DNA of 64,000 bases from Nocardioides marmoriginsengisoli (GTDB lineage: Bacteria > Actinomycetota > Actinomycetes > Propionibacteriales > Nocardioidaceae). Shown one piece after another: positions 32,597-56,932 of this stretch. Below the pieces are notes generated by a model. That model saw only the letters and a program-made list of their open reading frames with translations. It had not been told where the DNA came from and ran no database searches. Location of the stretch: NCBI RefSeq assembly GCF_003725695.1, contig NZ_RJSE01000007.1:1-64000 (forward strand). The letters run 5' to 3'. The position numbers and the translations under genes are program-made. The stretch's first letter is position 1. Each line of letters opens with the position of its first letter.

Positions 32597-32615
32597 TCGT
32601 CACTCCTCTTCATCC

Positions 32616-32697: not shown

Positions 32698-32734
32698 TTG
32701 ACACTTTCGATTGGTTATTGCATCGTGGATCCAA
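32698..32734 (+). promoter_or_regulatory. Promoter with GTGGATCCAA operator before the Rieske operon
   Basis: TTGACA (32698-32703) is followed after 17 bp by CATCGT (32721-32726), which merges with GTGGATCCAA (32725-32734). A further GGATTC lies at 32739. The first operator base pair differs from the consensus, the rest matches. Confidence 0.7.
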
Positions 32735-32755
32735 TACTGGATTCTGGAGGAACGA

Positions 32756-33817: not shown

Positions 33818-33824
33818 GGGCGGC

Positions 33825-34868
33825 ATGTCGATCCACGGAATCCGGACCCGGCCCGAGCTCTCGGCCCGGGCCCAGCTGACTTCCATCCTGCAGGCGGGTG
33901 CGCGGATCTACATGCACATCGCCGACGCCACCCTGGAGACCGGCGTGCCGACCGCGGAGGCCGCCGTACGGGCGCACCTGCGCGGGTACGGCTCCTGGCG
34001 CGGCGAGGAGATGCGTCAGGCGCACGCGGCGCTGGGCGGCGACATCGACATGCAGACGCTGATGCAGCGGTGGGACAGCGCGAGCACCTACGTGGTGAAG
34101 GACGAGCTGGAGGCCGACGGCGTCTACTCCCCCGGCGACGTCCAGTTCGAAGTGCACTACTGCCCGGCCTCGCTGGCCTGGAAGGAAGCCGGCTTCCACC
34201 GGTGGGGGCACGTGTACTGCGACGAGGTGCACCAGTCGATCGCGTCCAGCTACCACCCCGACGGCGTGGTCGTGATCCCGCTGAACCTGATGAAGGGCGA
34301 CAGCCACTGCCAGTTCCGCTGGGTGCTGCCGCCGACGGCCGCGAAGGTCGACCAGCCGGTGACCGACCTCGGCCGGCAGCTGGCCGAGCTCTACCCGGCG
34401 GCGGACACCGACGAGGAGACCGGGATGCGGCTGGCGCAGACCCGGACCAGTCGGCTGATCGCCGGAAGGTTCCTCACCTGGGCGCGGGCTGCCGAGGAGC
34501 ACGGGGTGCCGGAGAGCGCCCTGGTCGAAGGCCTCCGCCGGTGGGCGACCCAGCGCGGCGAGCTGCTCGCGAAGGACCTGGTCGGCCGCTCGGCGGCGAG
34601 CTTCCTGACCAACCTCGACCTGGCCCCGCTGGCGGTGTGGCGGTACGGCGTCGCGGTCGAGAACGACGACTGCACCGCGCTGATCGTGCACGGGACGCCG
34701 ATGGACGACCTGTTCCGGCACTACGACGCGGGCAAGTACGCGGCGATGTTCTGGGACGCCTTCCCGATCCTGGTGAAGGCGTTCGACCCGACCCTGGAGT
34801 GCCGCGTCACGGTCACCGAGACCGCGACCCCCGCACTACGGGAAGTGGTCCTCCGCCGCGCCTCCTGA
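33825..34868 (+). CDS. L-2-amino-thiazoline-4-carboxylate hydrolase-like protein
   Basis: A 347-aa protein without export signal. The stretch YCPASLAWKEAGFHRWGHVYC...DEVHQS and later LMKGDSHCQFRWVLPP resemble the ATC hydrolase family, in which conserved Cys, Asp and Cys residues lie in C-x(n)-D and GD-x-C-x-F patterns. The named enzyme opens a thiazoline ring during cysteine formation in Pseudomonas, but most relatives are untested. It starts 8 bp after the Rieske gene, so it probably acts on the oxygenase product or substrate. Its end overlaps the converging GntR gene by 56 bp. Confidence 0.65.
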   Translation: MSIHGIRTRPELSARAQLTSILQAGARIYMHIADATLETGVPTAEAAVRAHLRGYGSWRGEEMRQAHAALGGDIDMQTLMQRWDSASTYVVKDELEADGVYSPGDVQFEVHYCPASLAWKEAGFHRWGHVYCDEVHQSIASSYHPDGVVVIPLNLMKGDSHCQFRWVLPPTAAKVDQPVTDLGRQLAELYPAADTDEETGMRLAQTRTSRLIAGRFLTWARAAEEHGVPESALVEGLRRWATQRGELLAKDLVGRSAASFLTNLDLAPLAVWRYGVAVENDDCTALIVHGTPMDDLFRHYDAGKYAAMFWDAFPILVKAFDPTLECRVTVTETATPALREVVLRRAS

Positions 34869-39729: not shown

Positions 39730-40218
39730 GTGCGAACGATCAAGCGAACCACCGTGACCACGCCCCGGGACCTGCTGGACCTGGTCGGGCAGGACCTCGG
39801 CGCCAGTGAGCCGCGCGTCGTCACCCAGGAGGACGTCGACTCGTTCGCGGACGTCACCAAGGACCACCAGTGGATCCACGTCGACGTCGAGCGCGCGAAG
39901 ACCGGCCCGTTCGGGACCACGATCGTGCACGGGTTCCTGACCCTGGCGATGGTGCCGCGGCTGCTCGAGGACATCCTCGAGGTCTCCGAGTTCTCGATGG
40001 GCGTCAACTACGGCCTGGACCGGGTCCGCTTCATCCGCCCGCTGCCGCCGGGCACCGAGATCCAGGGCACCGCGACCCTGGTGTCGGCCGAGCCGATCGT
40101 CGCCACCGAGAAGGACCCGCGCGAGGGCGTGCAGGCCAAGGCATCGGTGGTCGTAGAGTTCGCGGACGAGTCACAGACCTGCTGCGTCGCCGAGATCCTG
40201 TTCCGCTACTACGCCTGA
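39730..40218 (+). CDS. MaoC-family dehydratase
   Basis: A 162-aa hotdog-fold hydratase. TQEDVDSFADVTKDHQWIHVDVERAKTGPFGTTIVHGFLTLA, read in parts, contains the catalytic Asp-x4-His of R-specific enoyl-CoA hydratases. It would hydrate an enoyl-CoA with R stereochemistry, or dehydrate a hydroxyacyl-CoA. The GTG at 39730 is about 10 bp after TGGAG. It is followed by the tetR gene on the same strand. Confidence 0.88.
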   Translation: MRTIKRTTVTTPRDLLDLVGQDLGASEPRVVTQEDVDSFADVTKDHQWIHVDVERAKTGPFGTTIVHGFLTLAMVPRLLEDILEVSEFSMGVNYGLDRVRFIRPLPPGTEIQGTATLVSAEPIVATEKDPREGVQAKASVVVEFADESQTCCVAEILFRYYA

Positions 40219-40259
40219 ACGTGACCCGCAGTGCCAGAGATGCGAGACCGAGGAGCACC

Positions 40260-40889
40260 ATGACTGAGCCCGCCGACACGACACCGTCCGGACGGCGCCG
40301 CTGGCCCGACGGCTACGACCCGCCGCGGACCCGTCGTGAGCTGGTCGACAGCGCCCTGCACCTGTTCGAGAAGGACGGTTTCGACCGGACCACGCTCCAG
40401 CAGATCGTCAGCCGCGCCAACCTCACCAAGGGTGCGTTCTACCACCACTTCGAGAGCAAGGAAGACCTGCTCTCGCAGATCCAGAACGAGTACCTGGACA
40501 CCCAGATCGAGGCCGCCAACGCGATCGTCGCCACCCAGACCGACACCGTCGAGCAGCTCCGCGAGCTGATCCGGCTCAGCCTCAGCGGGGTGGCGACCTA
40601 CCGCGCGCACGTGGCGATCTTCTACCAGGAGCGCCGCCACCTCACCGGTGACCGGCTGGCCGCGGTCACCGAGAAGCGCAACGAGCTCGAGGCCGTGTTC
40701 CGCGGTTCCGTCGAGCGCGGCATCGGCGCCGGCACCTTCCGCGCCGACATGTCCGGAAGGGTGGTCAGCTTCGGCATCCTCGGGATGTGCGCCTGGGCGT
40801 TCCAGTGGTTCAACCCGGACGGGACCCTGACCATCGACGAGGTGGCAGAGCAGTTCTGCGCGTTGGTGCTCGACGGGTTGCTGGCTTAG
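40260..40889 (+). CDS. TetR/AcrR-family transcriptional regulator
   Basis: A 209-aa regulator. The TetR helix-turn-helix is clear (TRRELVDSALHLFEKDGFDRTTLQQIVS, then NLTKGAFYHHFESKEDLL), followed by a helical ligand domain. The ATG at 40260 is 4 bp after AGGAG. It is the only specific regulator inside the 37-57 kb block, so it is the best candidate reader of the 18-bp palindromes at 37201, 39698, 42978, 44646 and 44734. Acyl-CoA is a common ligand for TetR proteins in such clusters (inference). Confidence 0.9.
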   Translation: MTEPADTTPSGRRRWPDGYDPPRTRRELVDSALHLFEKDGFDRTTLQQIVSRANLTKGAFYHHFESKEDLLSQIQNEYLDTQIEAANAIVATQTDTVEQLRELIRLSLSGVATYRAHVAIFYQERRHLTGDRLAAVTEKRNELEAVFRGSVERGIGAGTFRADMSGRVVSFGILGMCAWAFQWFNPDGTLTIDEVAEQFCALVLDGLLA

Positions 40890-40903
40890 TCCCTGCGGAC
40901 GCC

Positions 40904-40919
40904 CGCCGCCCGCGCGGCG
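40904..40919. terminator. Hairpin between convergent tetR and flavin reductase genes
   Basis: CGCCGC (40904-40909), loop CCGC, then GCGGCG (40914-40919) form a perfect 6-bp stem in the 37-bp gap between the two convergent stops. There is no T run, as is common in high-G+C actinobacteria. It could serve both strands. Confidence 0.5.
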
Positions 40920-40926
40920 ACCCGCC

Positions 40927-41442
40927 CTACTCCGCCAGGTCGGCGACCGGGGCGGAGAAGCGGCCCCGGTAGAAGGAGAGCGCCGGCGTCGAGGACTCCT
41001 TGAGCCCGACGTGGTCCACGTCGACCAGGAAGATGATGTGGTCGCCGCTGCTGATCGCCTGGTCGGTGCGGCCGGCGAGGACGGCCGGCGTACCCGGGAT
41101 CAGCGGCACCCCGTCCGGTCCCGGGGTCCAGCCGATGCCGTCGAGCTTGTCGGTGCCGGAGAGCCCCGAGGTCGCGAACCGGCGGGCGATGTCCTCCTGG
41201 TCGGCGCCGAGGATGTGGATCGCGATCCGCTCGGCCTCGGCGAGCACCGGGTAGCTGGACGAGGTGGTCGCCAGGCAGAACAGCACCTTCGCCGGTTCCA
41301 GCGAGACCGAGGTGAACGAGTTCACCGTCAGCGCCGCGACCCGGCCGTCGGCGGTGCGTGCGGTGACGGCGGTGACGCCGGTCGGGAAGTGCCCGCAGAC
41401 CTTGCGGAAGTCACCGGAGTCGAAGAGGGGCTCGGTCGTCAT
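40927..41442 (-). CDS. Flavin reductase family protein
   Basis: A 171-aa flavin reductase-like protein (FRKVCGHFPTGVTAVTARTADGRVAALTVNSFTSVSLEPAKVLFCLA, read in parts). Such proteins hand reduced FMN or FAD to a partner monooxygenase. The ATG overlaps the preceding VOC stop. No flavin-dependent monooxygenase is encoded beside it in this window, so its partner may be elsewhere or the nitroreductase-like protein may use the reduced flavin. Confidence 0.87.
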   Translation of the reverse strand: MTTEPLFDSGDFRKVCGHFPTGVTAVTARTADGRVAALTVNSFTSVSLEPAKVLFCLATTSSSYPVLAEAERIAIHILGADQEDIARRFATSGLSGTDKLDGIGWTPGPDGVPLIPGTPAVLAGRTDQAISSGDHIIFLVDVDHVGLKESSTPALSFYRGRFSAPVADLAE

Positions 41443-42239
41443 GCGGTCACCGCCGAGGAGAAGTTGTCGGGACGGAGGCGGCTCTGCAGCTCGACCAGGC
41501 ACACGGTGTGGCCCTCGGGGTCGCGGATCAGCTGCAGCTTGCCGTGCGGGCTCTCGAACGGGCCGACGCTCGGCGTGCCGCCGAGCTCGGTGACCCGGCT
41601 GATCGCGTCGTCCAGGGAGGCGACGCTGAAGTACGTGATCCAGGTGGACGGCACCAGGTTCGGCCAGTCGTTGTCGAGCCGAAGCACGCCGGCGACGGCG
41701 ACCTCGCCGAGCTTCAGCACGGTGTACGGCTGGGAGGTCGGCGAGCTCTGCACCTCGGTGTCGAACCCGAACAGCGCCTGGTAGTACGCGATCGACTGCT
41801 CCGGCTCACCGGTGTCGAGCTCGTTCCAGCAGAGCGCGCCGGACTCGTTCAGCGCCTCGACGCCCGCGCGCAGCTCGCCCTGGTAGAGGCCGAAGACGGC
41901 ACCGAACGGGTCGACCACGGTCGCGCCGGAGCCGGCGGCCGGCAGGTGGCGCGGCGCGGTGACGAGCTCGCCGCCCGCGGTCACGGCCTGCTCGGCGGCG
42001 GCGTCGATGTCGTCGACCGCGAAGTAGGTGATCCAGCCGCGCGGTCCTCCGTGCAGACCGTCCGAGATGCCGGCGACGTCGCGTCCGGCGAGGCTGCACA
42101 TCCGGTAGACGGAGCTGCCGATCCGCTCGTGGCGCACCGTCCAGCCGAGGAGTGCCGAGTAGAACTCCTCGGAGGCGGCCGGGTCGGACGAGCAGAGCTC
42201 GACCCACACCGCCTCGCCGGCTTGGAAGGGTCGGTTCAT
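41439..42239 (-). CDS. VOC-family protein with two glyoxalase-like domains
   Basis: A 266-aa protein with two vicinal-oxygen-chelate modules (about 1-120 and 135-255). Each has the beta-alpha-beta pattern with FYSALLGW and YYQALFGF segments. The family includes lyases, epimerases, dioxygenases and binding proteins; the specific role is not evident. The ATG at 42239 overlaps the previous gene's stop (ATGA), and its own stop overlaps the flavin reductase start, so the three genes form one coupled operon. Confidence 0.85.
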   Translation of the reverse strand: MNRPFQAGEAVWVELCSSDPAASEEFYSALLGWTVRHERIGSSVYRMCSLAGRDVAGISDGLHGGPRGWITYFAVDDIDAAAEQAVTAGGELVTAPRHLPAAGSGATVVDPFGAVFGLYQGELRAGVEALNESGALCWNELDTGEPEQSIAYYQALFGFDTEVQSSPTSQPYTVLKLGEVAVAGVLRLDNDWPNLVPSTWITYFSVASLDDAISRVTELGGTPSVGPFESPHGKLQLIRDPEGHTVCLVELQSRLRPDNFSSAVTA

Positions 42240-42967
42240 CGGTCTGCTCCTTCGGCAGGCGGCCGCACGATCGTGCGGGCCGAGATCTCGTAGGCGGCCG
42301 CCGGTGACCCGGTGGCGATGCTGCTCTCGACGACCTCGACCACGGCGCGCAGGGCATCGCCGGGGACGGCCGCGAGGCTCTCGACGAGCTCGTCGACCTC
42401 GGCGTCGAGGGTGGTTTCGGTGACGACCCTGGCGACCAGGCCCCAGGCCAGCAGCTGGGCCGCGGTGGCCGTCGTACCGGTGAGGAGGGCGTAGGCCTGC
42501 GCCCGCGGCAGGGCCTGCGCGACGGTGTGCCCGACGCCGGCCGGCGCGAAGCCGTACCGGACCTCGGGCAGCGAGAGCCGGACGTCGCTCGCCGCCACCG
42601 GCAGGTGCACCGCGGCGAGCAGGCCGGCACCGAAGCCGATCACCTGACCCCGTACGGCGGCCACCACCGGGACCGGCAGCCGACGGATCCGGCCCAGGCT
42701 CTCGTCGCTGGTCCGGAGGTCCGCCGCGACGGCGTCGGTACCGGCGGCCGCCAGCGCCTCGAACGACGAGGTGTCCCAGCCGCCGCAGAAGTTCCGGCCG
42801 GCCAGCTCCAGCCGGATCACCGCGCATGCGGGGTCGGCGGCGGCCTCCTCGAGGACGTCGGCCAGCTCGGTGAGCAGGGCCTGGTCGAAGCAGTTCCCCC
42901 GCCGGCTGTTGTCGTAGGTCACGCGCGCGACACGACCGCCGCGTTCGCGCTCCAGGGTGGTGGACAT
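42236..42967 (-). CDS. Enoyl-CoA hydratase/isomerase family protein (2)
   Basis: A 243-aa crotonase-fold protein (RNFCGGWDTSSFEAL; oxyanion-hole AVRGQVIGFGAGLLAAVHLPVAA). The ATG at 42967 lies 7 bp after a strong -10 box, with no ribosome site, so the mRNA is probably leaderless. It heads a three-gene leftward operon with the VOC and flavin reductase genes. An in-frame ATG at 42979 lies inside the promoter and is rejected. Confidence 0.85.
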   Translation of the reverse strand: MSTTLERERGGRVARVTYDNSRRGNCFDQALLTELADVLEEAAADPACAVIRLELAGRNFCGGWDTSSFEALAAAGTDAVAADLRTSDESLGRIRRLPVPVVAAVRGQVIGFGAGLLAAVHLPVAASDVRLSLPEVRYGFAPAGVGHTVAQALPRAQAYALLTGTTATAAQLLAWGLVARVVTETTLDAEVDELVESLAAVPGDALRAVVEVVESSIATGSPAAAYEISARTIVRPPAEGADR

Positions 42968-44754: not shown

Positions 44755-44816
44755 GTGTTGAGCGTCACGGAACCACGTCGCGCGTCATCACATCTCACTG
44801 CGTGAAGGAAGACCTC

Positions 44817-46337
44817 ATGATCAAGAACCGCTTGGGAGCACGGCGGCTGGTTGCCGTTGCCGCCGCGCTCACGATGGCAGGACTCGGCCTCACTGCTTGT
44901 GGAAGCGACTCGGAGAAGTCCGGCGCTTCGAGCAACGCCCCGATCCGCGCGCTGCTGAACGCGCAGCCGACCACCCTGGACCCGATCGTGGGACCGCGCT
45001 CCGGCCAGCCGGTGTGGGGGACGATGCTCGAGCCGCTGATCAACACCGACGCGAAGTTCGACCCGGAGAACACCGGCGTCATCACGGACTGGAAGCGCGA
45101 CGACCCGACCACCTGGACGTTCACCGTCCGGGAAGGCATCAGCTTCAGCAACGGCGAGAAGGCCGACGCTGCCGCGGTCGCCAACTCGATCCTGCTCAAC
45201 CGCGACACCGAGGCCGGCATCCTGAAGTCGTACTTCGGCAACGTCGCCTCGGTCGAGGCGCCCGACGCCACCACCGTGGTGCTGAAGACGAAGACCCCGC
45301 AGTACAACATCCCGAACCTGCTGACCAACGTCTTCCTGCTGCCGCCGGCCTACTACAAGGAGAAGGGCTCCGAGGGCTTCGCCGCCGCTCCGGTCGGCAC
45401 GGGACCCTACGTGCTCGACAAGGTCCAGGCCGGTCGCAGCATCTCGGTCAAGCTCAACCCCGACTACTGGGGCGAGAAGCCGAAGAACACCGGCGTCGAC
45501 TTCAGCTGGTCCAACGAGCCGTCCCAGCGGCTGGCGCTGCTGCAGTCCAAGAGCGTCGACGTCGCCTTCGACCTGAGCTACACCCAGGCCGCGGACGCCA
45601 AGAAGGCCGGCCTCGAGGTCACCAGCACCGAGACCGCGGTCAAGCTGGTCGCGTTCCTGTACGCCCCGACGGCTCCGTTCAACGACCCGAAGCTGCGTGA
45701 GGCGGCCGCCCTGGCGATCGACCGGAACGCCATCGTCGACGGCATCTTCGACGGCCACGCCAAGGCTGACGCCGGACTGCTCAACATCGTCCCCGGCTCC
45801 GAGCCCGGCGAGTCCGTCACGGCTGACCCGGCGAAGGCCAAGGAGCTGGTCGGCGGTACCAGCGTGACCGTGCCGATCTCCTACCCGGCCGGGCAGTACA
45901 CCAACATCGAAGAGGTCGCCCAGGCCATCGGCGGCAGCCTCGAGAAGGCCGGCTTCAAGGTCAAGTACAACCCGCTCGACTACGGAACCCTGGTCAAGCA
46001 GGTCGTCGGCCGCCAGCTGAACGGCATCTACATGTTCGCCGGCGTCCCGAACGTCGCTGTCCCGGACTTCTTCGCCAGCGGCTTCATGAAGACCGTCTCG
46101 ATCACCGGCAACTGCCCGGACCCGAAGGCGGACGCGCTGGTCCAGAAGGCCCTGGAGCAGGACGACGCGGCTGCTGCCGCGCCGGTCTACGACGAGCTCA
46201 ACACGCTCGGCGTCGTGGACAACCACTGCTTCGTGCCGCTGTACCGCCAGATCTTCAACTACGGCACCCAGAAGAACGTCAGCGGTGTGCAGTACGACGC
46301 ACTCGGCGCCTACGACTTCACGAAGGCGACGCGCTGA
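44817..46337 (+). CDS. ABC transporter substrate-binding lipoprotein, peptide/nickel type (SBP family 5)
   Basis: A 506-aa lipoprotein with lipobox Cys28 (GLGLTACGSD). The family 5 layout is clear: APIRALLNAQPTTLDPI, TTWTFTVREGISFSNGEK and YLGAYDF-like C-terminus. The ATG at 44817 follows AAGGAAG. It binds the import substrate, which need not be a peptide. It is the first gene of an operon that encodes the whole importer and then CoA-pathway enzymes, so the ligand is probably the pathway's acid or conjugate. Confidence 0.9.
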   Translation: MIKNRLGARRLVAVAAALTMAGLGLTACGSDSEKSGASSNAPIRALLNAQPTTLDPIVGPRSGQPVWGTMLEPLINTDAKFDPENTGVITDWKRDDPTTWTFTVREGISFSNGEKADAAAVANSILLNRDTEAGILKSYFGNVASVEAPDATTVVLKTKTPQYNIPNLLTNVFLLPPAYYKEKGSEGFAAAPVGTGPYVLDKVQAGRSISVKLNPDYWGEKPKNTGVDFSWSNEPSQRLALLQSKSVDVAFDLSYTQAADAKKAGLEVTSTETAVKLVAFLYAPTAPFNDPKLREAAALAIDRNAIVDGIFDGHAKADAGLLNIVPGSEPGESVTADPAKAKELVGGTSVTVPISYPAGQYTNIEEVAQAIGGSLEKAGFKVKYNPLDYGTLVKQVVGRQLNGIYMFAGVPNVAVPDFFASGFMKTVSITGNCPDPKADALVQKALEQDDAAAAAPVYDELNTLGVVDNHCFVPLYRQIFNYGTQKNVSGVQYDALGAYDFTKATR

Positions 46338-46339
46338 CG

Positions 46340-47185
46340 ATGTCCGAGATCCTGGAGACGGAGGTGTCGGCCGACCACGGCCGGCGCCTCCGTGCCCCGG
46401 AGGAATCCACCCCGGTGCTCGACGTCGACGACCTCGTCGTCGAGCACCGGAACCGGACCACGGGGGAAGTGTTCCGAGCCGTCGACGGCGTCTCGTTGCG
46501 GATCGACGCCGGCGAGAGCGTCGCGGTCGTGGGGGAGTCCGGCTCCGGCAAGACCACCCTGGCGATGGCGGCGACCGGGCTCGGGGTCCGGGGCAGCGGC
46601 GACATCCAGCTGCTCGGGCACTCGCTCGCCTCGATCGGACGGCGGCAGCTGCGTGAGCTCCGTCCCGAGGTGCAGGTCGTCTTCCAGGACCCGCACGGCT
46701 CCCTCGACCCGCGGCAGTCGGTCCGGTCCGGCCTGCGCGAGCTGCGCGGGTTGCAGCGCGAGCGCACCTCGTGGATCGACGACGACGGCCTGCTCGACCG
46801 GGTCCGGCTCACCCCCGACATGCTCGACCGGTACCCCCACCAGCTCAGCGGCGGCCAGGCCCAGCGGGTCTGCATCGCCCGGGCCCTGCTGATGCGCCCG
46901 CGGCTGATCGTCGCCGACGAGCCCACCTCGGGCCTCGACGTCTCGGTCCAGGCCGACGTCCTCAAGCTCCTCCAGGAGACGCAGGCCAGCACCGGCGCCG
47001 CGCTCCTGATGATCAGCCACGACCTGGCCGTGGTCCGCTCGGTCTGCGACTCCGTGCACGTGATGTTCCGCGGCAAGGTCGTCGAGTCCGGGCCCTGCGA
47101 GACCGTGTTCAAGAATCCGACGAACGAGTACACCCGCGAGCTGCTGGACGCGATGCCCGGCGCCCGCTGGAGGGCACGCCGATGA
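46340..47185 (+). CDS. Peptide-type ABC transporter ATP-binding protein (DppF/OppF-like)
   Basis: A 281-aa ATPase with Walker A GESGSGKT, Q-loop VVFQDPHGSLDPR, signature LSGGQAQR and Walker B LIVADEPTSGLDVS; the C-terminal NPTNEYTRELLDAMPG segment is typical of Opp/Dpp ATPases. It starts 2 bp after the binding-protein stop and overlaps the next gene (ATGA). Confidence 0.92.
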   Translation: MSEILETEVSADHGRRLRAPEESTPVLDVDDLVVEHRNRTTGEVFRAVDGVSLRIDAGESVAVVGESGSGKTTLAMAATGLGVRGSGDIQLLGHSLASIGRRQLRELRPEVQVVFQDPHGSLDPRQSVRSGLRELRGLQRERTSWIDDDGLLDRVRLTPDMLDRYPHQLSGGQAQRVCIARALLMRPRLIVADEPTSGLDVSVQADVLKLLQETQASTGAALLMISHDLAVVRSVCDSVHVMFRGKVVESGPCETVFKNPTNEYTRELLDAMPGARWRARR

Positions 47186-48105
47186 AAGCGACCACCCTGA
47201 GAAGGATCGGTGCCCGGGTGGCGACCCTGCTGGCGTCGTTGCTGATCGCGCTGACGATGGCGTTCGCGCTCGGCCGCCTCTCCGGCGACCCGACCGCGAC
47301 CATCCTCGGCCCGATGGCGCTGCCCGAGCAGCGGGAGGCGCTGCGCCACCAGCTGGGCCTCGACCAGCCCTTGCTGGTGCAGTACTTCGACTACCTCAAG
47401 GGCGTCTTCACCGGCGACCTCGGCGACTCGCTGCAGTTCTACCAGTCCAACACCACGATGATCCTCGACCGGCTGCCGTTCACCCTGCAGCTGGTGGCGG
47501 CCGGGATGAGCCTGGCGATCCTGATCGGGATCCCGCTCGGCGTCCTGGCGGCCACCCGCGAGGGCACCTGGTGGGACCGCGGCGCCTCGACGCTGGCGCT
47601 GCTCGGCCAGTCGGTGCCGGTCTTCTGGCTCGGGATGATGCTGGTGGTCCTGTTCGCGGTGAAGCTCGGCTGGTTGCCGGCCGGTCAGTCCGGGTCGCTC
47701 AAGCACCTGATCCTGCCCGCGGTCACGATGGCGCTCTACCCGATGGCGCACATCGCCCGGCTGACTCGCGCCTCGATGAGCGACGCGCTCCGCGAGCCGT
47801 TCATCGACTCGGCGCGCGCCCGCGGGATCAGCACCACCCGGGTCGTCTGGCGGCACGGGTTCAAGAACGCGATGATGCCGATCCTCACGATCATCGTGCT
47901 GCAGACCGGTGTGCTGATGTCCGGCGCCGTCGCGATCGAGTACGTCTACTCCTGGCCCGGCCTCGGCCAGCTGGCGCTGCAGTCGATCCAGTTCCGCGAC
48001 TTCCCGCTGGTCCAGGCGATCGTCGTCTTCGCCGCGGTGATCTTCGTGCTCCTCAATCTCGTCGTGGACCTGCTCCACTCCGTCGTCGACCCCCGGGTGA
48101 GGTGA
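47182..48105 (+). CDS. Peptide-type ABC transporter permease (DppB-like)
   Basis: A 307-aa permease with about six membrane segments. LGLDQPLLVQYFDYLKGVFTGDLGDS and the EAA-like loop LREPFIDSARARGISTTRVVWRHGFKNAMMP are standard DppB features. The start overlaps the ATPase stop. It forms the membrane channel with the next gene. Confidence 0.93.
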   Translation: MKATTLRRIGARVATLLASLLIALTMAFALGRLSGDPTATILGPMALPEQREALRHQLGLDQPLLVQYFDYLKGVFTGDLGDSLQFYQSNTTMILDRLPFTLQLVAAGMSLAILIGIPLGVLAATREGTWWDRGASTLALLGQSVPVFWLGMMLVVLFAVKLGWLPAGQSGSLKHLILPAVTMALYPMAHIARLTRASMSDALREPFIDSARARGISTTRVVWRHGFKNAMMPILTIIVLQTGVLMSGAVAIEYVYSWPGLGQLALQSIQFRDFPLVQAIVVFAAVIFVLLNLVVDLLHSVVDPRVR

Positions 48106-48111: not shown

Positions 48112-49014
48112 ATGAGTGAGCTCGAGATCGAGCTGGCCCCGCACGCCGGCGAGCCGCTGAAGCCGGCCAAGGACCGGCGCCGCCGTACGAGCCGGACGTC
48201 GGTGTTCTGGCTGGGCCTGCCGCTCGGCGTGATCACCTTCCTGGTCTTCGTGCTGCCGCTGACCGGGCTGCTGCCCGACGGCGGCCAGGACCTCACCGCC
48301 ACCCGGCTGCCGCCCGCGTTCCTGGACGGCGGCACCTGGGCGCACCCGCTGGGCACCAACAAGCTCGGCCAGGACGGACTGACCCAGCTGGTCGAGAGCG
48401 GCCGGCTGACGATCATGATCGGCCTGGTCGGCGCGCTGGTGGCGATCGGACCGGGCACGCTGCTGGGCCTGCTGGCCGGCTACTGCCGGGGCTGGGTCGA
48501 CAAGACCATCTCGATCCTGATCGACGCCCAGCTCGCGCTGCCGTTCATCCTGATCGCGCTGGCCATCATCGCGAACCGCGGTAGCTCGCTGCCGGTGCTG
48601 TTCCTGGTCCTCGCCCTCACCGGCTGGGCCAGCTGCGCCCGGGTCACCCGGTCCGCGACGCTGAGCATCCGGGAGCGCCAGTTCGTGCTCGGCCTGCGCG
48701 CGGCCGGAGCCTCCGAGGCCCGGATCGTCTTCCGGCACGTGCTGCCGAACCTGGCCGGCACCGTGGTCGCGCTGGCGACACTCCAGGTGGGCACCGCGAT
48801 CCTGGTCGAGAGCGCGCTCAGCTTCCTCGGCCTCGGTGTCGTGCCGCCGCACTCGAGCTGGGGCTCGATGCTCGCGGCCGGCCAGGACGAGCTCAGTCAC
48901 TCCTGGTGGATCGCCTTCTTCCCCGGTCTCGCGATCACCGTGCTGGTGCTGCTGGTCAACCTGATCGGCGACGCCCTGCTCACCCACAACGACCCGAGGA
49001 AGAGGCGCCGATGA
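48112..49014 (+). CDS. Peptide-type ABC transporter permease (DppC-like)
   Basis: A 300-aa permease with a basic N-terminal tail, about six membrane segments, HPLGTNKLGQDGLTQLVESGR and the docking loop RERQFVLGLRAAGASEARIVFRHVLPN. It is the DppC partner of the preceding gene, and its stop overlaps the next ATG. Confidence 0.93.
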   Translation: MSELEIELAPHAGEPLKPAKDRRRRTSRTSVFWLGLPLGVITFLVFVLPLTGLLPDGGQDLTATRLPPAFLDGGTWAHPLGTNKLGQDGLTQLVESGRLTIMIGLVGALVAIGPGTLLGLLAGYCRGWVDKTISILIDAQLALPFILIALAIIANRGSSLPVLFLVLALTGWASCARVTRSATLSIRERQFVLGLRAAGASEARIVFRHVLPNLAGTVVALATLQVGTAILVESALSFLGLGVVPPHSSWGSMLAAGQDELSHSWWIAFFPGLAITVLVLLVNLIGDALLTHNDPRKRRR

Positions 49015-49802
49015 CCGAGCTGCTCACCATCTCCGGGCTCTCCATCTCGGCCCGGCTCGCGGACTGCGACCTGCGGCTGCTCGACGACGTCGACCTCGCC
49101 GTACGACGCGGCCAGATCGTCGGCGTGGTCGGGGAGTCCGGCAGCGGCAAGACCACCCTGGCGCGCTCGGTGGTCGGCCTGCTGGAAAAGAACGTGCGCG
49201 TGGACGGCGGGTCGATCTCGCTGGCCGGCGAGCAGGTCGTCGCGCCCGGGGTCGACCTGACCGCCGGGGTCCGTGGCGGCCAGGTCGGGATGGTCTTCCA
49301 GGACGCGTCCCGGTCGCTGAACCCGCTGATGAAGGTGCGGGCGCACCTCGCCGAGGTGCTGCACCGGCACGTCCCCGGCATCGACAAGGACGAGGTGCGC
49401 CGGCGCTCGGTCGAGGTGCTCGAGCAGATGCGGATCACCGACACCGCCCGGGTCCTCGACAGCTACCCGCACCAGCTCTCCGGCGGCCTGCGGCAGCGGG
49501 TCGCGATCGGCCTCGCCGTGGTCACCCGACCCTCGCTGGTGATCGCCGACGAGTGCACCACCGCGCTCGACGTGACCACCCAGACCAAGGTGGTCGAGCT
49601 GTTCCGGACGCTCGTCGACGAGCTCGGCATCGGCCTGCTCTTCGTCACCCACGACCTGATGCTGGCCAGCGACCTCTGCGACGAGATCGCGGTGATGAGC
49701 AGCGGCCGCGTCGTCGAGCAGGGGACCGCCCTGCACGTCCTGGAGAGCCCCGAGCAGGACTACACGCGGCGCCTGCTCGCCGCGATCCCCGCCTGGAACT
49801 AG
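49011..49802 (+). CDS. Peptide-type ABC transporter ATP-binding protein (DppD-like)
   Basis: A 263-aa ATPase with Walker A GESGSGKT, Q-loop VFQDASRSLNPLMKV, signature LSGGLRQR, and Walker B LVIADECTTALDV, where the usual Glu-Pro after Asp is Glu-Cys. The ATG at 49011 overlaps the permease stop. With the DppF-like ATPase it completes the importer. Confidence 0.92.
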   Translation: MTELLTISGLSISARLADCDLRLLDDVDLAVRRGQIVGVVGESGSGKTTLARSVVGLLEKNVRVDGGSISLAGEQVVAPGVDLTAGVRGGQVGMVFQDASRSLNPLMKVRAHLAEVLHRHVPGIDKDEVRRRSVEVLEQMRITDTARVLDSYPHQLSGGLRQRVAIGLAVVTRPSLVIADECTTALDVTTQTKVVELFRTLVDELGIGLLFVTHDLMLASDLCDEIAVMSSGRVVEQGTALHVLESPEQDYTRRLLAAIPAWN

Positions 49803-49819: not shown

Positions 49820-51235
49820 ATGCCCGATCAGCCCGGGATCGACGCGTACGCGGCGTACCTGCCTGCCTACGTGCTCGCCGACAACCGCCTCGACGCCACC
49901 ACGGCGCCCCGTTCCGGCGGACCGACCAGAAGCGTCGCGGCGTACGACGAGGACTCGGTGACGATGGCCGTCGAGGCCCTCCGCCACCTGGCCGAGCCGA
50001 CCGGCTGGGGTCGCCAGCTGCTGCTCGCCACCACCAGCGCGCCGTACGACGCCAAGACGTCGGCCGGCATCGTCCACGAGGCGCTCGGCCTCGACCCGGG
50101 CGTCTCCGCGGTCGACCTGCGCGGCCACCGCTCGGGTGCCGCGGCGCTCGACCTGGTCACCCGCGCCGGCGCCTGCGCCGCGCTCGCCGATGTCCGGACG
50201 ACCCGGCCGGGCGCTCCGGACGAGCTCGCCCAGGGTGACGCGGCGGCGGCCTTCATCGGCGGCAGCGGAACGTCTCCTCGGGCCGCGACCCTGGTCGCCC
50301 GGGCCGCGCACACGACCGAGGTGCTCGAGCGCTGGCGGCTTCCCGGTGAGCAGCACGACCGGGTCTGGGACGAGCGCTTCACCGCCGAGGTGCTGGTCGA
50401 GGCCGGCAAGGCCGCCGCCACCCGGGCGCTCGCCGACGCCGGGCTCTCCGGCGTGCACCACGTGGTGGTCTCCTCCTCCAACGCTCGCGCGGCCGCGACG
50501 CTGCGTCGGGCGCTCGGCGGCGACGGCCAGGACGCGATGATCGAGCGGGCGACCGGCTTCACCGGCGCGGCCCACCCGGGCCTGCTGCTGGCGGCCTGCC
50601 TCGACCTAGCCGAACCCGGCCAGACCGTCCTGCTGCTCTCCGCGACCGAGGGGGCCGACGCGTTCGTCTTCCGGGTCGGTGACGACATCCGGACGGCCCG
50701 CACCGGGCCGACCGTGCGCGACCAGCTCGCCGCGCAGCAGCAGCTCGGGTACGGCAGGTTCCTGCGCTGGCGCGGCCTGCTCGACGTCCAGGGTCCCGCC
50801 CGCCCGGCCGCTCCGGCCCCGGCGGCACCGCCGATGAACCGGCGCGCCGGCTGGAAGTTCCGCCTCGAGGGCAGCCGCTGCGACGCCTGCGGCAGCGTCA
50901 CCACCCCGCCGCGACGGATCTGCGTCTCCTGCGGGATCCCGACCTCGACGGACTCGCCGAGCAAGGTCTCGCTGCGCGACCGGGTCGCCACGGTGGTCTC
51001 GGTGACCACCGACCACCTGACCACGATGCCGGAGGCCTCGGTGGCGATCGTGATCGCCGACGTCGAGGGCGGCGGCCGGCTGTCGGCGTACGCGGCCGAC
51101 GTCCCCGCCGAGGACGTCGCCGTCGGGATGGAGATGACGCCGACGTTCCGGCGGCTCTGGACCACCGACGCGATCCACAACTACTTCTGGAAGCTCCGTC
51201 CCACGACGGCCGTGCTCGACAAGGACACCCCCTGA
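49820..51235 (+). CDS. HMG-CoA-synthase-like thiolase-fold protein fused to a DUF35 OB-fold domain
   Basis: A 471-aa protein. Residues about 1-325 have the HMG-CoA synthase/KAS III fold pattern (IDAYAAYLPAYVL start, ATGFTGAAHPGLLLAACLDLA late). Residues about 340-471 are a DUF35 module with a zinc ribbon (Cys354, 357, 368, 371) and an OB fold. At the usual nucleophile cysteine position the sequence reads LRGHRSGAAAL, and the usual His before Asn reads SSSN, so both catalytic residues seem lost. It starts after GAAGGAGAG and overlaps the thiolase start by one base, suggesting a complex with that thiolase. Confidence 0.8.
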   Translation: MPDQPGIDAYAAYLPAYVLADNRLDATTAPRSGGPTRSVAAYDEDSVTMAVEALRHLAEPTGWGRQLLLATTSAPYDAKTSAGIVHEALGLDPGVSAVDLRGHRSGAAALDLVTRAGACAALADVRTTRPGAPDELAQGDAAAAFIGGSGTSPRAATLVARAAHTTEVLERWRLPGEQHDRVWDERFTAEVLVEAGKAAATRALADAGLSGVHHVVVSSSNARAAATLRRALGGDGQDAMIERATGFTGAAHPGLLLAACLDLAEPGQTVLLLSATEGADAFVFRVGDDIRTARTGPTVRDQLAAQQQLGYGRFLRWRGLLDVQGPARPAAPAPAAPPMNRRAGWKFRLEGSRCDACGSVTTPPRRICVSCGIPTSTDSPSKVSLRDRVATVVSVTTDHLTTMPEASVAIVIADVEGGGRLSAYAADVPAEDVAVGMEMTPTFRRLWTTDAIHNYFWKLRPTTAVLDKDTP

Positions 51236-52419
51236 TGGCGAATCACCGGATGGCCCACGACGTCGCAATCGTCGCGATGGGCTGCACCCCGTTCCGCGAC
51301 CACTGGAACTCCTCGGCCGACGACCTGCTGGTCGATGCCGTCGGCGAGTGCCTCGAGCAGCTGCCGGACGTCGCGATCACCGACGTCGACGCGTTCTGGG
51401 TCGGCACCCAGGGATCCGGGATGTCCGGCCAGACGCTGGCCCGGCCGCTGCGGCTGGTCGGCAAGCCGGTGACCCGGGTCGAGAACTACTGCGCCACCGG
51501 CTCGGAGGCGTTCCGCAACGCCGCCTTCGCGGTGGCCTCCGGTGCCTACGACATGGTGATGGCGACCGGTGTCGAGAAGCTCAAGGACAGCTCGCAGTCC
51601 GGGCTCTCCGCGGTCTACCCGCCGTCCGACGGGACCGACGTCGACTGGACGGCTCCGGCCGGCTTCTCGCTGCTGGCTCCGGCGTACCAGGGTGCGTACG
51701 GCGTCGGCGACCGGGACATGCGCAGCACGCTGACGCACGTCGCGGTGAAGAACCACGCCAACGGCGCCCTGAACAAGCGCGCCCAGTTCCAGAAGGCGAT
51801 CTCGGCCGAGGTCGTCGAGTCGTCGCCGAAGATCGCCGGGCCGCTCGGGGTGATGGACTGCTCGGGCGTCTCCGACGGCGCCGCCGCGGCGATCCTGGTC
51901 CGGGCCGAGGACGCCTACAAGTACACCGACAAGCCGATCTTCCTGAAGGGGATGGGTTTCGTCGCCGGTGCCGGTGAGGGGCTCGCCTCGGACGGCTACG
52001 ACTTCACCACCTTCCCCGAGGTGGTCACCGCCGCCGCGCAGGCCTACGAGCAGGCGGGCGTCACCGACCCGGCGAACCAGATCTCGCTGGCCGAGGTGCA
52101 CGACTGCTTCACGCCCACCGAGCTGGTGCTGATGGAGGACCTGGGCTTCTCGGAGCGCGGCAAGGGCTGGCGCGACGTCCTCGACGGGCGCTACGACCTC
52201 GACGGCGCGCTGCCGGTCAACAGCGACGGCGGACTGAAGTCGTTCGGGCACCCGATCGGTGCCACCGGCCTGCGGATGATGTTCGAGTGCTTCACCCAGC
52301 TGCGCGGTGAGGCCGGTGACCGCCAGGTCGCCGACGCCAGGCTCGCGGTGGCGCAGAACCTCGGCGGACAGCCGGGCTCCTGCGTCGCGTTCGTCGCGGT
52401 GCTGGGGAACGAGCGATGA
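51235..52419 (+). CDS. Thiolase / SCP2-type acyl-CoA acetyltransferase
   Basis: A 394-aa thiolase. The nucleophile is Cys86 (ENYCATGSEAFRNA); EVHDCFTPTELVLMEDLG and SFGHPIGATGLRM provide the active-site histidines. The C-terminal NLGGQPGSCVAF lacks the normal CxG cysteine, as in SCP2/lipid-transfer-type thiolases and Ltp aldolases. It would cleave a beta-ketoacyl-CoA, or act as a retro-aldolase with the DUF35 partner. The ATG overlaps the previous stop (TGATG). Confidence 0.87.
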   Translation: MANHRMAHDVAIVAMGCTPFRDHWNSSADDLLVDAVGECLEQLPDVAITDVDAFWVGTQGSGMSGQTLARPLRLVGKPVTRVENYCATGSEAFRNAAFAVASGAYDMVMATGVEKLKDSSQSGLSAVYPPSDGTDVDWTAPAGFSLLAPAYQGAYGVGDRDMRSTLTHVAVKNHANGALNKRAQFQKAISAEVVESSPKIAGPLGVMDCSGVSDGAAAAILVRAEDAYKYTDKPIFLKGMGFVAGAGEGLASDGYDFTTFPEVVTAAAQAYEQAGVTDPANQISLAEVHDCFTPTELVLMEDLGFSERGKGWRDVLDGRYDLDGALPVNSDGGLKSFGHPIGATGLRMMFECFTQLRGEAGDRQVADARLAVAQNLGGQPGSCVAFVAVLGNER

Positions 52420-53330
52420 GCGCCGGGCAGGTCGCCTTCGACGGCCGGGTCGCGATCGTCACCGGCGCCGGCAACGGCATCGGCCGGGCGCACGCGCTGA
52501 CCCTGGCCGCGCACGGCGCCCGCGTCGTCGTCAACGACCTCGGCGGATCGGTCGACGGGACCGGCTCGTCCGGTGCCGCGGCGGCGGTCGTCGCCGAGAT
52601 CGAGGCGGCCGGCGGTACGGCGGTGGCGTCGACCGACTCGGTCGCGACCGTCGAGGGCGGCGCCGCGCTGGTGCGGACCGCGATCGACGCCTTCGGGCAG
52701 GTCGACGCGATCATCCACAACGCCGGCATCCTCCGGGACCGGAGCTTCGCGAAGATGACCGACGACGACGTCACCGCGGTCTTCGACGTCCACCTCGGCG
52801 GCGCGTTCAACGTGCTCCGGCCGGCCTGGCCGCACCTGGTCGCGCAGGGCTTCGGCCGGATCGTGCTGACCAGCTCGTCCTCCGGGCTGCTCGGCAACTT
52901 CGGCCAGTCCAGCTACGGCGCGGCGAAGGCCGGCCTGATCGGGCTGATGAACGTGCTCTCCCTGGAGGGCGCCCGGCACGGGATCCTGGTCAACGCGCTC
53001 TCGCCGACGGCGGCAACCCGGATGACCGAGGGTCTGCTCGGCGACCTCGCCGACCGGTTCGAGCCCGAGCACGTGGCCGCGGTGGCGACGTACCTGGCCT
53101 CGGAGCAGTGCGAGCTGAGCCGGCAGATCCTCACCGTCGGCGGCGGTCGGGTGGGCCGGATCTTCCTCGGCGTCACCCCGGGCTGGTACTCCGGCCCGGA
53201 CCCGGCCTCGCCGACTGACGTCCTCGGCGCGATCGACGAGATCTGCTCGCTGGACGACTACATCGTCCCGGAGGGCGGCGCCGACGAGATCGCCCTGATC
53301 CAGAAGGTCCTGGCCGGTCCCTCGGCCTGA
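52416..53330 (+). CDS. SDR-family 3-hydroxyacyl-CoA dehydrogenase-like protein
   Basis: A 304-aa short-chain dehydrogenase with TGAGNGIG at the cofactor site, HNAGILRDRSFAKM and the catalytic SSYGAAKAG. The extended C-terminus and the GILRDRSF motif resemble the dehydrogenase part of peroxisomal multifunctional enzyme 2, which oxidises R-3-hydroxyacyl-CoA. That would match the MaoC hydratase (39730). The ATG overlaps the thiolase stop (ATGA). Confidence 0.88.
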   Translation: MSAGQVAFDGRVAIVTGAGNGIGRAHALTLAAHGARVVVNDLGGSVDGTGSSGAAAAVVAEIEAAGGTAVASTDSVATVEGGAALVRTAIDAFGQVDAIIHNAGILRDRSFAKMTDDDVTAVFDVHLGGAFNVLRPAWPHLVAQGFGRIVLTSSSSGLLGNFGQSSYGAAKAGLIGLMNVLSLEGARHGILVNALSPTAATRMTEGLLGDLADRFEPEHVAAVATYLASEQCELSRQILTVGGGRVGRIFLGVTPGWYSGPDPASPTDVLGAIDEICSLDDYIVPEGGADEIALIQKVLAGPSA

Positions 53331-53355: not shown

Positions 53356-53865
53356 ATGGCTGTCAGCGAGGTTCACCACGTCGCGATCTCGGTCTCCGAC
53401 GTGGAGCGGGCCGCGGACTTCTACGAGAAGGCCCTCGGCTACACCAAGACGCTGCGCTCGGACGTCGGCGGGCCCGGCATCGAGGAGTCGCTCGGACTCC
53501 CGGCCGGCACCACCGGCAAGGTCCAGTACCTGCAGGGCCCGTCCCAGATCGGCCAGCTCGAGCTGATCGAGTGGAACGGCACCAAGACCCGTACGGCGAC
53601 CGCCGGGCACCTCGAGCTCGGCACCTTCCTGCTCAGCTTCCAGGTGCCGCTCGACGAGATCGAGGAGCTGCACCAGCGGATGACCGACCTCGGCGCCGAG
53701 TGCCTCTCGCCGCCGAACCGGGTGCTGCTCCAGAACTACGGCTACATCACCGCGTTCGCGGCCCGGGATCTCGACGGGAACCTGCTCGAGTTCGTCTCGC
53801 TGCCGTCGCGCGAGGAGATCCGGGCGTTCAGGAGCGGTGAGTCCCAGAACGGGGCGACCAGCTGA
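53356..53865 (+). CDS. VOC-family protein (single-chain, glyoxalase-like)
   Basis: A 169-aa vicinal-oxygen-chelate protein (VHHVAISVSDVERAADFYEKALGY, late LDGNLLEFVSLP). Relatives include methylmalonyl-CoA epimerase and extradiol-type enzymes; metal ligands look like His in the first strand and Glu in LLEF. Its role in the CoA pathway is unknown. The ATG at 53356 lies 25 bp after the SDR stop, and the stop overlaps the next start. Confidence 0.82.
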   Translation: MAVSEVHHVAISVSDVERAADFYEKALGYTKTLRSDVGGPGIEESLGLPAGTTGKVQYLQGPSQIGQLELIEWNGTKTRTATAGHLELGTFLLSFQVPLDEIEELHQRMTDLGAECLSPPNRVLLQNYGYITAFAARDLDGNLLEFVSLPSREEIRAFRSGESQNGATS

Positions 53866-55388
53866 TGGCCACCAGCAACTTCTCCGAGACGCTCCGCCGC
53901 CAGGCGCTCCGGCGCGCCGATCGCGAGGCGCTGGTCGACGGCGACCGGCGCTGGACCTACGCCGAGCTGGACGCCGCGGTGGACCGGCACGCGGCGGCGC
54001 TGCTGGCGGCCGGGATCGGCGGCAACGACCTGGTCGGGGTCCTCGGCGGCAACTCGGCGACGTACGTGCTGGAGCTGCTGGCGCTGAGCCGGATCGGTGC
54101 GATCTCGGTGCCGCTGAACTGGCGGCTGCACACCAACGAGCAGACCTACGTGATCGAGCAGGCCGGGATCAGCTGCCTGCTGTACGACGACCAGTTCAGC
54201 GAGCAGGCGGGCCAGCTGATGGCCGGCACCGGACTGAGGATCGCGGTCGCGAACGGCGACGACGTCATCGCCGGCGCCGAGCGGCTGGCCGACCTGCTGG
54301 ACCGGCAGCCCGCCGGTGTCCGCGTCCCGGATGCGGAGAAGGACGCGGACGACATCCACCGGCTGCTCTACACCTCGGGCACGACCGCGCACCCGAAGGG
54401 CGTCATCCACACCTGCGGCAACCTGACCGCGAACCACCGCGCCCAGGTGCTCGAGCTCGAGCTGACCCAGGAGGACAGGATCCTGGTCTCGGCGCCGCTC
54501 TTCCACGTCAGCGGGCTGGAGGCGCCCGGTCTGGCGGTGTTCGTCGCCGGCGCGACGATGGTGCTGACCCCGACCTTCAAGGCCGAGGACATCGCCCGGA
54601 TCGCGACCGAGGAGCGGATCACCGGGATGGTGCTCGCCGCCCAGATCCTGTTCGCGATGATGGAGCTCGACCCCGCCCCGGACCTGAGCACGCTGCGGTA
54701 CCTGCTCTTCGCCGGGGTCGCACCGAGCGTGCGCCGCCAGGTCAAGGCGCTGCTGCCGCACGTGCGGCTGGTCGACACCTTCGGGATGACCGAGCTGTGC
54801 AACGGGGTCTGCTACATGGACGCCGCGCACGAGGAGTCGAAGATGGGCGCGCTCGGCGCGCCGTTCCCCGGGGTGCACCTGCGCATCGTCGACGAGGACT
54901 TCCGCGAGGTCCGGCCCGGCGCCGAGGGCGAGCTGATCGTCCGCGGCGAGAAGATCTCGCCGGGGTACTGGAACGACGACGAGGCCAACAAGCGCACCCG
55001 GCGGGACGGCTGGTTCCTCACCGGCGACGTCGCCCGGATCGACGAGGACGGCTACCTCTGGTTCGTGGACCGTCGTACCGACCTGATCAAGTCGGGTGGC
55101 GAGAACATCGCCAGCGCCGAGGTCGAGCGGGTGATCGCCCAGCACCCGCAGGTCGCCGAGGTGGCCGTGATCGGCGTACCGGACGCGCAGTGGGACGAGG
55201 TGCCGAAGGCTTTCGTGATCCTGCGCGACCCCGGTGCCGCGACCGCCGAGGACCTCCGCGAGCACTGCATCGCGAACCTCGCCAAGTACAAGGTGCCCAA
55301 GCACATCGACGTGGTCGAGGCGCTGCCGCGCAACGACTCCGGCAAGGTGCTCAAGAAGCGGCTGCGGGAGCAGGAGGTCACCGCGTGA
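53865..55388 (+). CDS. AMP-dependent acyl-CoA ligase (1)
   Basis: A 507-aa adenylate-forming ligase. The P-loop is LLYTSGTTAHPKG, with FGMTELCNG, the hinge region DRRTDLIKSGGENIAS and the catalytic lysine in NDSGKVLKKRLRE. It activates a carboxylic acid to an acyl-CoA with ATP. The ATG at 53865 overlaps the VOC stop. It is followed at once by a second ligase of the same family. Confidence 0.9.
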   Translation: MATSNFSETLRRQALRRADREALVDGDRRWTYAELDAAVDRHAAALLAAGIGGNDLVGVLGGNSATYVLELLALSRIGAISVPLNWRLHTNEQTYVIEQAGISCLLYDDQFSEQAGQLMAGTGLRIAVANGDDVIAGAERLADLLDRQPAGVRVPDAEKDADDIHRLLYTSGTTAHPKGVIHTCGNLTANHRAQVLELELTQEDRILVSAPLFHVSGLEAPGLAVFVAGATMVLTPTFKAEDIARIATEERITGMVLAAQILFAMMELDPAPDLSTLRYLLFAGVAPSVRRQVKALLPHVRLVDTFGMTELCNGVCYMDAAHEESKMGALGAPFPGVHLRIVDEDFREVRPGAEGELIVRGEKISPGYWNDDEANKRTRRDGWFLTGDVARIDEDGYLWFVDRRTDLIKSGGENIASAEVERVIAQHPQVAEVAVIGVPDAQWDEVPKAFVILRDPGAATAEDLREHCIANLAKYKVPKHIDVVEALPRNDSGKVLKKRLREQEVTA

Positions 55389-56932
55389 GTGCGCCGACCG
55401 CGAACCTGGCCCGGATGATCACCCTGAACGCGGTGCGGTTCGCCGACGCCGACGCCCTGGTCTTCGAGGGCCGGCGATGGACCTACGCCGAGCTCGACGC
55501 CGACGTCAGCGCGCTGGCCGCCGGTCTGGCCGAGCAGGGCGTCGCACGCGACTCCCGGATCGCGATCGTGGCGAACAACGTGCCGGAGTTCCTGATCCTG
55601 TCGCTGGCGCTGACCCGGCTCGGAGCGGTCTTCGTGCCGCTGAACTACCGGCTCACCGCCGGCGAGCTGGCGCACCTGATCGGGCACGCGCAGGTGGAGG
55701 CGGTCGCGACCGTGCCCGAGTTCGCGGAGCTGACCGCGGACGCGCTCACCGGCCTTCCCGCCGTACGACGGATCGCGCTGGAGCCGATCGACGAGACCTG
55801 GCAGGACGTTGCCGCGATCGCCGAGCCGCACCGCGGCGTCCGGGTCGCCGACGTCGAGCTGGACGACCACGCGCTGCAGCGGATCATCTACACCTCGGGC
55901 ACCACCAGCCTGCCCAAGGGCGTGATGATCACGCACGGCAACGTGAACGCCAACATGCACGCCCAGATCGTCGAGCTGGGGCTGACGACCGCGGACCGGA
56001 TCCTGAACGTCGCCCCGCTGTACCACGTGGGCGGTCTCGACCTCCCCGGCTACGCGATCTGGCACGTGGGCGGCTGCATGGTGCTCCAGCGCCGCTTCGA
56101 GCCGGACGACATCCTGCGCGGGATCGACTCCGAGTCGATCACCGGGATGGTGGCGGCAGCCGCGATGCTCGACATGATCCGCCGCAACGCCGAGGAGGTC
56201 GGCGCCGACCTGACCTCGATGCGCTGGCTGATCTTCTCCCAGGTGACGACGGCGCTCTTCAAGGTGGCGCGCGGGCTCTTCCCGAACGCCAGGCTCATCG
56301 AGGGCTACGGCCTCACCGAGACCTGCAGCGGGCTCACCTATCTCGACGAAGCCCACATGGAGAGCAAGCAGGGCTCCGTCGGCATCCCGGTCCCGTGGGT
56401 CGACGTCCGCGTCGTCGACGAGAACGACGAGGATGTCCCGGTCGGCGAGAACGGCGAGGTGATCGCCCGCGGTCCGAAGGTCAGCCCCGGCTACCTCGAC
56501 GACGGCGACGCCACCGCCAGCGCGTTCCGCAACGGCTGGTTCCACACCGGCGACGTCGGCTGCTTCGACGCCGACGGCTACCTCTACATCCGCGACCGGC
56601 TCAAGGACATGATCCGCAGCGGCGGCGAGAACATGTCCAGCGCCGAGATCGAGAACGTCCTCGCCGACCACCCGCTGGTGCTCTCCGCCTCCGTGGTGGC
56701 CGCCCCGCACCCGAAGTGGCAGGAGGTGCCGGTGGCGTTCGTGATCGGCAAGCCCGGCCTGACCGCCGACGACCTGGTCGAGCACGCGCGTGCGCGCCTG
56801 GGCAAGTTCAAGGTGCCCAAGGAGATCTACCTCGTCGAGGAGTTCCCGACCAACCCGTCCGGGAAGGTGCTGAAGCGGAGCCTGCGCGAGCAGCGCCCGG
56901 AGATGGTGCCGGACTGGGCCTACTCGGAGTAG
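55385..56932 (+). CDS. AMP-dependent acyl-CoA ligase (2)
   Basis: A 515-aa adenylate-forming ligase, related to but clearly different from the one before it (IIYTSGTTSLPKGVM, GYGLTETCSG, DRLKDMIRSGGENMSS, NPSGKVLKRSLRE). The GTG at 55385 overlaps the previous stop (GTGA). It is the last gene of the operon that begins at 44817. Two ligases may activate two acids, for example substrate and a side-chain or late intermediate. Confidence 0.9.
   Translation: MSAPTANLARMITLNAVRFADADALVFEGRRWTYAELDADVSALAAGLAEQGVARDSRIAIVANNVPEFLILSLALTRLGAVFVPLNYRLTAGELAHLIGHAQVEAVATVPEFAELTADALTGLPAVRRIALEPIDETWQDVAAIAEPHRGVRVADVELDDHALQRIIYTSGTTSLPKGVMITHGNVNANMHAQIVELGLTTADRILNVAPLYHVGGLDLPGYAIWHVGGCMVLQRRFEPDDILRGIDSESITGMVAAAAMLDMIRRNAEEVGADLTSMRWLIFSQVTTALFKVARGLFPNARLIEGYGLTETCSGLTYLDEAHMESKQGSVGIPVPWVDVRVVDENDEDVPVGENGEVIARGPKVSPGYLDDGDATASAFRNGWFHTGDVGCFDADGYLYIRDRLKDMIRSGGENMSSAEIENVLADHPLVLSASVVAAPHPKWQEVPVAFVIGKPGLTADDLVEHARARLGKFKVPKEIYLVEEFPTNPSGKVLKRSLREQRPEMVPDWAYSE

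Follow-up and report, generated by a model that had tools for sequence, protein, structure and literature searches.

Several enzyme complexes are known in which a thiolase-fold subunit is joined by a DUF35 protein, and in some of these a relative of hydroxymethylglutaryl-coenzyme A (CoA) synthase (HMGS) is the third member. In the archaeal thiolase/HMGS/DUF35 complex (6esq/6et9) the HMGS is active, with Glu82 and Cys114 in place, and DUF35 is a separate chain. The other solved precedents are the Friedel-Crafts acyltransferase PhlACB, or PpATase (5m3k), CsATase (9skh) and MucABC (9vbo). Within PhlACB the HMGS-like subunit PhlA lacks the catalytic Cys and Glu, only residues of PhlC act, and all three subunits are needed (PMC6392133), thus a dead HMGS-like subunit alongside DUF35 and a thiolase is already known. 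The steroid aldolases ChsH2-Ltp2 and Shy-Sal and the benzoylsuccinyl-CoA thiolase BbsAB also combine a thiolase-fold enzyme with a DUF35 partner, but they have no HMGS-like domain, and the aldolases also lack the Cys and HDCF set of thiolases. Here we describe a pair of genes, P0001 and P0002, from a stretch of 64,000 nucleotides of Nocardioides marmoriginsengisoli (contig NZ_RJSE01000007.1, positions 1 to 64,000), the whole of which is referred to as the window. The pair shares its three domain types with the archaeal complex, and like PhlACB it encodes a dead HMGS-like part, DUF35 and a thiolase-fold protein together, but the residues retained by the archaeal HMGS are lost, DUF35 is fused to the HMGS-like domain, and the genes lie in a CoA-dependent catabolic operon whereas PhlACB is made of three separate chains and carries out a CoA-independent C-acylation. 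We consider it fairly probable that P0002 is an active SCP2-type thiolase that works in a complex with P0001, a non-catalytic HMGS-like scaffold fused to a DUF35 bridge.

The two genes are both coding and lie on the forward strand, P0001 (471 amino acids) at 49820-51235 and P0002 (394 amino acids) at 51235-52419, with an overlap of one base (TGATG), and their relatives adjoin each other in many genera. The HMGS-like domain of P0001 covers residues 6-320 (49835-50779). The N-terminal part of the protein matches the archaeal HMGS models NF003274 (E 1e-30) and TIGR00748 (4e-18), although both scores are below the curated cut-offs (107 against 244 bits and 65.7 against 353 bits), and it also matches solved HMGS and PhlA chains. 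The AlphaFold2 model of P0001 is confident (predicted local distance difference test (pLDDT) 86.7, predicted template modelling score (pTM) 0.90) and has the HMGS fold of the thiolase superfamily, the best solved match being 6et9_I, the HMGS of the archaeal complex (template modelling score 0.82 by target), with MucABC, CsATase and PhlA also among the top matches. A flexible linker at residues 333-341 (pLDDT <50) lies between the HMGS-like and DUF35 domains.

It is the catalytic residues that have gone from this domain. When P0001 is aligned with the HMGS of Methanothermococcus, Thr stands opposite Glu82, RGHRSG is found at the Cys114 motif FACKAG, with the loop of the clade one residue shorter, and HQPN has become SSSN (residues 218-221, 50471-50482); the GHRSG that stands where the nucleophile loop of HMGS has ACKAG is at residues 102-106 (50123-50137). 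A preliminary description of this DNA had already proposed an HMGS-like domain without catalytic residues, fused to DUF35 and next to a thiolase, with GHRSG and SSSN replacing the nucleophile and HxxN motifs, and the open reading frames, the profiles, the model and the alignment to HMGS chains bear this out.

The same loss is found across a sample of 72 adjacent HMGS-like/thiolase pairs from Actinomycetota and Proteobacteria, 67 of them long enough to include DUF35 and 5 unfused. None of the 72 HMGS-like proteins has the Cys, His or Glu at the three catalytic positions, with L, A, I, V, T, P, Q, G or a gap in the Cys column and S, A, P, T, V, Y or C in the His column, and as the replacements are so varied there is no new common catalytic residue at these positions. 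Nor did the alignment uncover an intact Cys-His pair elsewhere, one of the points on which the preliminary description had made its claim depend: the rest of the domain contains no Cys or His that is conserved across the family, C119 and C260 included, and an alternative catalytic pair was rejected for want of a conserved candidate. Judged from these alignments the loss is a trait of the family, not a local accident, and the domain is probably without catalysis. L083, a sampled actinobacterial protein that retains the Cys and HQP motifs, does not adjoin such a thiolase. The HMGS-like domain is under purifying selection, with ratios of nonsynonymous to synonymous substitution (dN/dS) of 0.20-0.28 compared to 0.13-0.22 for the thiolase by simple Nei-Gojobori counts; a chance or decaying gene is rejected by its conservation, these ratios and its phyletic spread.

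The remainder of P0001, residues ~343-462, is a DUF35 domain of the ChsH2 type, with a rubredoxin-like zinc ribbon (50861-50938) that retains all four cysteines (C354, C357, C368 and C371) followed by an oligonucleotide/oligosaccharide-binding (OB) fold (50954-51205). The Pfam match to zf-ChsH2 is over its cut-off and that to OB_ChsH2_C, at 22.2 bits, is below the cut-off of 27.1, while the profile of the family matches solved DUF35 chains, for example 6esq_E over profile positions 335-452. One clade of the fused family (L053-L063 and L065) is without all or nearly all of the four zinc ligands, having D/S/S/G-type replacements, and is still fused and still adjoins the thiolase; L067 has a gap at this place in the alignment. 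The genome has 11 matches to the DUF35 OB fold.

P0002 matches the NCBIfam model NF004810 with 580 bits against a cut-off of 403 and has the full catalytic set of SCP2/archaeal-type thiolases, the nucleophile Cys86 (VENYCATG, 51490-51492), the HDCF motif H289-D290-C291-F292 (52099-52110) and the GHP motif G338-H339-P340 (52246-52254). SCP2-thiolases are proposed to use the Cys of the HDCF-type motif as proton donor and a second Cys as nucleophile (PMC12329534), with the equivalent of Cys291 replacing the CxG cysteine of classical thiolases. The absence of a C-terminal CxG cysteine, to which the preliminary description drew attention, is real, the site reading NLGG (residues 375-378, 52357-52368), but it gives no sign of altered chemistry; Asn-x-Gly-Gly is likewise found in the SCP2-thiolase 4bi9 and the archaeal thiolase 6esq, thus the missing cysteine is a normal feature of the class. 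P0002 has the same Cys-HDCF-GHP set, and the same Asn at the CxG position, as SCP2-type thiolases (4bi9; NCBIfam PRK06157), although the protozoan SCP2-thiolases are not known to need a DUF35 or HMGS-like partner. A structure model of P0002 was too weak for use (pLDDT 73.9). Every thiolase of the 72 pairs has Cys86 and GHP, and 67 have HDCF, the other five reading YNSF and all belonging to a single actinobacterial family without the fusion (L079, L080, L082, L084 and L086), in which the HMGS-like protein, the thiolase and DUF35 are encoded by three separate genes. These YNSF thiolases retain Cys86 and possibly have an altered chemistry.

The pairing of the two genes is near-obligate. We surveyed 396 Actinomycetota genomes, of which 65, about one in six, are matched by the HMGS-like profile. 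Of the 69 NF004810-type thiolases over the cut-off, 66 are no more than 500 bp away from such a match, and two of the other three are apparently at contig breaks. More distant relatives (36-46%) occur in other clusters and are always accompanied by the thiolase, and the pair is carried on plasmids of Rhodococcus, Mycobacterium, Sphingobium, Novosphingobium, Variovorax, Azoarcus and Tistrella. About ten Sphingobium plasmids (AP027312-AP027342) from TomMM and TomTYG strains, which from their names we take to be tomato-associated, have a thiolase at 45-46% identity, and HMGS-like relatives are found in ten Sphingobium plasmid records. Frame changes interrupt both genes in Actinomadura sp. CNU-125, as a result of either decay or assembly error.

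MtHMGS and PhlA both fall outside the group that the family forms (Shimodaira-Hasegawa-like approximate likelihood ratio test 95) on a tree with few outgroups for which the HMGS and PhlA reference sequences were the parts printed in database alignments. The gene is present in only one of eight sampled genomes of the genus, that of the window itself, and on the tree the copy in the window groups with Micromonosporaceae and Thermomonosporaceae, not with two Nocardioides of its own family; its rarity in the genus and this grouping suggest that it was acquired by horizontal transfer.

The surroundings of the pair say more about what it may do. It is part of an operon on the forward strand that begins with an importer of the Opp/Dpp type of ATP-binding cassette (ABC) systems, consisting of a substrate-binding protein (44802-46337), ATPase 1 (46340-47185), permease 1 (47182-48105, start approximate), permease 2 (48112-49014) and ATPase 2 (49011-49802). 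P0001 and P0002 follow, then a short-chain dehydrogenase/reductase (SDR; 52416-53330) with its nearest solved relatives among the (3R)-hydroxyacyl-CoA dehydrogenase domains of peroxisomal MFE-2/17beta-HSD4, a VOC (glyoxalase-superfamily) protein (53356-53865) and two AMP-forming acyl-CoA ligases (53865-55388 and 55385-56932). This order is retained in 15 full loci from seven genera (Micromonospora, Dactylosporangium, Virgisporangium, Actinomadura, Thermomonospora, Nocardioides and Microbacterium) and also on a Streptomyces plasmid; the count of loci left out ATPase 2, which is present on the plasmid. A gene for an enoyl-CoA hydratase family protein (42239-42922, reverse strand) is divergent from the operon and is found divergently upstream in 16 related loci. 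Beyond it MaoC (+), TetR (+), flavin reductase (-) and VOC (-) genes occupy 39754-42239, and the same four precede the operon in the same order on the Streptomyces plasmid. A second catabolic stretch in the window (29337-34868), with an ABC importer, a GntR-like regulator, a VanA-type Rieske oxygenase and an L-ATC-hydrolase-like protein, has no counterparts beside the operon on that plasmid.

This operon context favours CoA-dependent cleavage of a 3-ketoacyl-CoA, and the gene pair is probably used in the breakdown of bulky acids. The loss of the HMGS residues, the intact residues of the thiolase, the fusion, the near-obligate pairing and the conservation of the operon are all observed, whereas the formation of a complex, the lack of catalysis by the HMGS-like domain, and the direction and substrate of the reaction are what we infer. 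P0001 and P0002 would make up one heteromeric enzyme with P0002, a 3-ketoacyl-CoA thiolase of the SCP2/archaeal type, as the only catalytic subunit, Cys86 acting as nucleophile with Cys291 of HDCF and His339 of GHP in acid-base and oxyanion roles. An ancestral HMG-CoA synthase would have become the structural body of P0001 and been fused to the DUF35 bridge, which would dock on the thiolase. The probable role of the HMGS-like body is to close off or enlarge the acyl/CoA cavity, in the way that PhlA acts within PhlACB. An imported acid could then be activated by the acyl-CoA ligases of the operon, the MFE-2-type SDR would oxidise the 3-hydroxyacyl-CoA, and the complex would cleave the resulting 3-ketoacyl-CoA with CoA. 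The absence of catalytic residues from all 72 HMGS-like proteins and the near-obligate pairing support the earlier suggestion of a non-catalytic scaffold with an SCP2-type enzyme. The correlation between HMGS-like and thiolase distances (r 0.915) also speaks for it, although such a correlation is partly trivial for neighbouring genes. Some points weigh against this scheme. The operon core is without an acyl-CoA dehydrogenase and no full round of beta-oxidation is encoded there. PhlC, a similar thiolase-fold subunit, is able to carry out non-thiolytic acyl transfer, and it is conceivable that the pocket of the HMGS-like domain, with its family-specific residues W183-x-E185-R186, has an unforeseen activity.

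The first of these latter points leads to the alternative that survives best, unlikely as we consider it, that the pair resembles PhlACB in function and, as a C-acyltransferase or C-deacylase, transfers or removes an acyl group on a carbon of an aromatic or enolic substrate without CoA thiolysis. PhlACB has the closest architecture with a dead HMGS-like subunit, some relatives of the pair adjoin ring-hydroxylating dioxygenase genes, and the ibuprofen cluster offers a further case, in which the release of propionyl-CoA is attributed to IpfDE, a reported thiolase whose genes are clustered with those for a ring dioxygenase (PMC9195938). However, P0002 is closer to the archaeal acetoacetyl-CoA thiolase (187.9 bits to 6esq_A) and the SCP2-thiolases than to PhlC, and the acyl-CoA ligases, MFE-2-type SDR and importer nearby point to CoA-dependent catabolism. 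Slightly less likely again is that the HMGS-like domain itself has a new activity, either catalytic or in the binding of CoA or acyl groups, the fusion being a two-step channelling enzyme in the archaeal manner. Its strong conservation would fit with this, as would W183 and E185, which are absent from MtHMGS and PhlA, yet variation at the former catalytic positions is unconstrained, the domain has neither a Cys nor a His that is conserved, and the conserved charged residues are mostly those common to MtHMGS and PhlA.

A retro-aldolase complex similar to Ltp2/ChsH2 or Sal/Shy, as raised in the preliminary description, is very improbable. The pairing of DUF35 with a thiolase-fold protein is indeed common to ChsH2-Ltp2 and Shy-Sal, but in Sal the nucleophile is replaced by Gly and the motif reads YDCY, and in Ltp2 it reads YDHF (PMC12329534), whereas Cys86, HDCF and GHP are all present in P0002 and in 67 of the 72 pairs. 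Furthermore, contig C14 of the same genome carries an Ltp-like thiolase-fold gene in a steroid hydratase locus of the ChsH1/ChsH2 type, thus the organism probably has a separate steroid aldolase system. That the genes encode two independent enzymes without a physical complex is just as improbable; the near-obligate adjacency over phyla, the fact that DUF35, known to bind thiolases, has been retained, and the three-gene sets of HMGS-like protein, thiolase and DUF35 in one family all argue for an association.

On plasmid p3 of Novosphingobium sp. ES2-1 the pair lies between genes for an acyl-CoA dehydrogenase, an SDR, enoyl-CoA hydratases and a cytochrome P450, surroundings that look like the estradiol-degradation cluster, which would make the thiolase of the pair a candidate for that pathway. 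In the open-licence literature we found no paper on the fused HMGS/OB-fold family, which is apparently undescribed, no report of it in estradiol degraders and no decisive match for its substrate.

The fused family is a variant, recurring in bacteria but apparently undescribed, of the complexes already known to combine a thiolase, DUF35 and a synthase. Current annotations of the HMGS-like/DUF35 protein as 'OB-fold protein', 'KAS III C-terminal' or 'hydroxymethylglutaryl-CoA synthase' are misleading, the last being the RefSeq name on a plasmid of Streptomyces cathayae for a protein that has lost the catalytic residues. Tentatively, and with rather less assurance than for the pair itself, we suggest that this may be a widespread family of bacterial thiolase complexes in which the dead HMGS/DUF35 protein serves as a cavity module for bulky or unusual acyl-CoAs in the catabolism of xenobiotics, steroids and plant compounds. 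The family is a marker for CoA-dependent degradation clusters, including one on the plasmid of an apparent estradiol degrader. A conserved pseudoenzyme of such wide range that partners a thiolase is also a testable case of a synthase turned scaffold, a case aided by the fact that both active archaeal relatives and the dead PhlA have already been solved.
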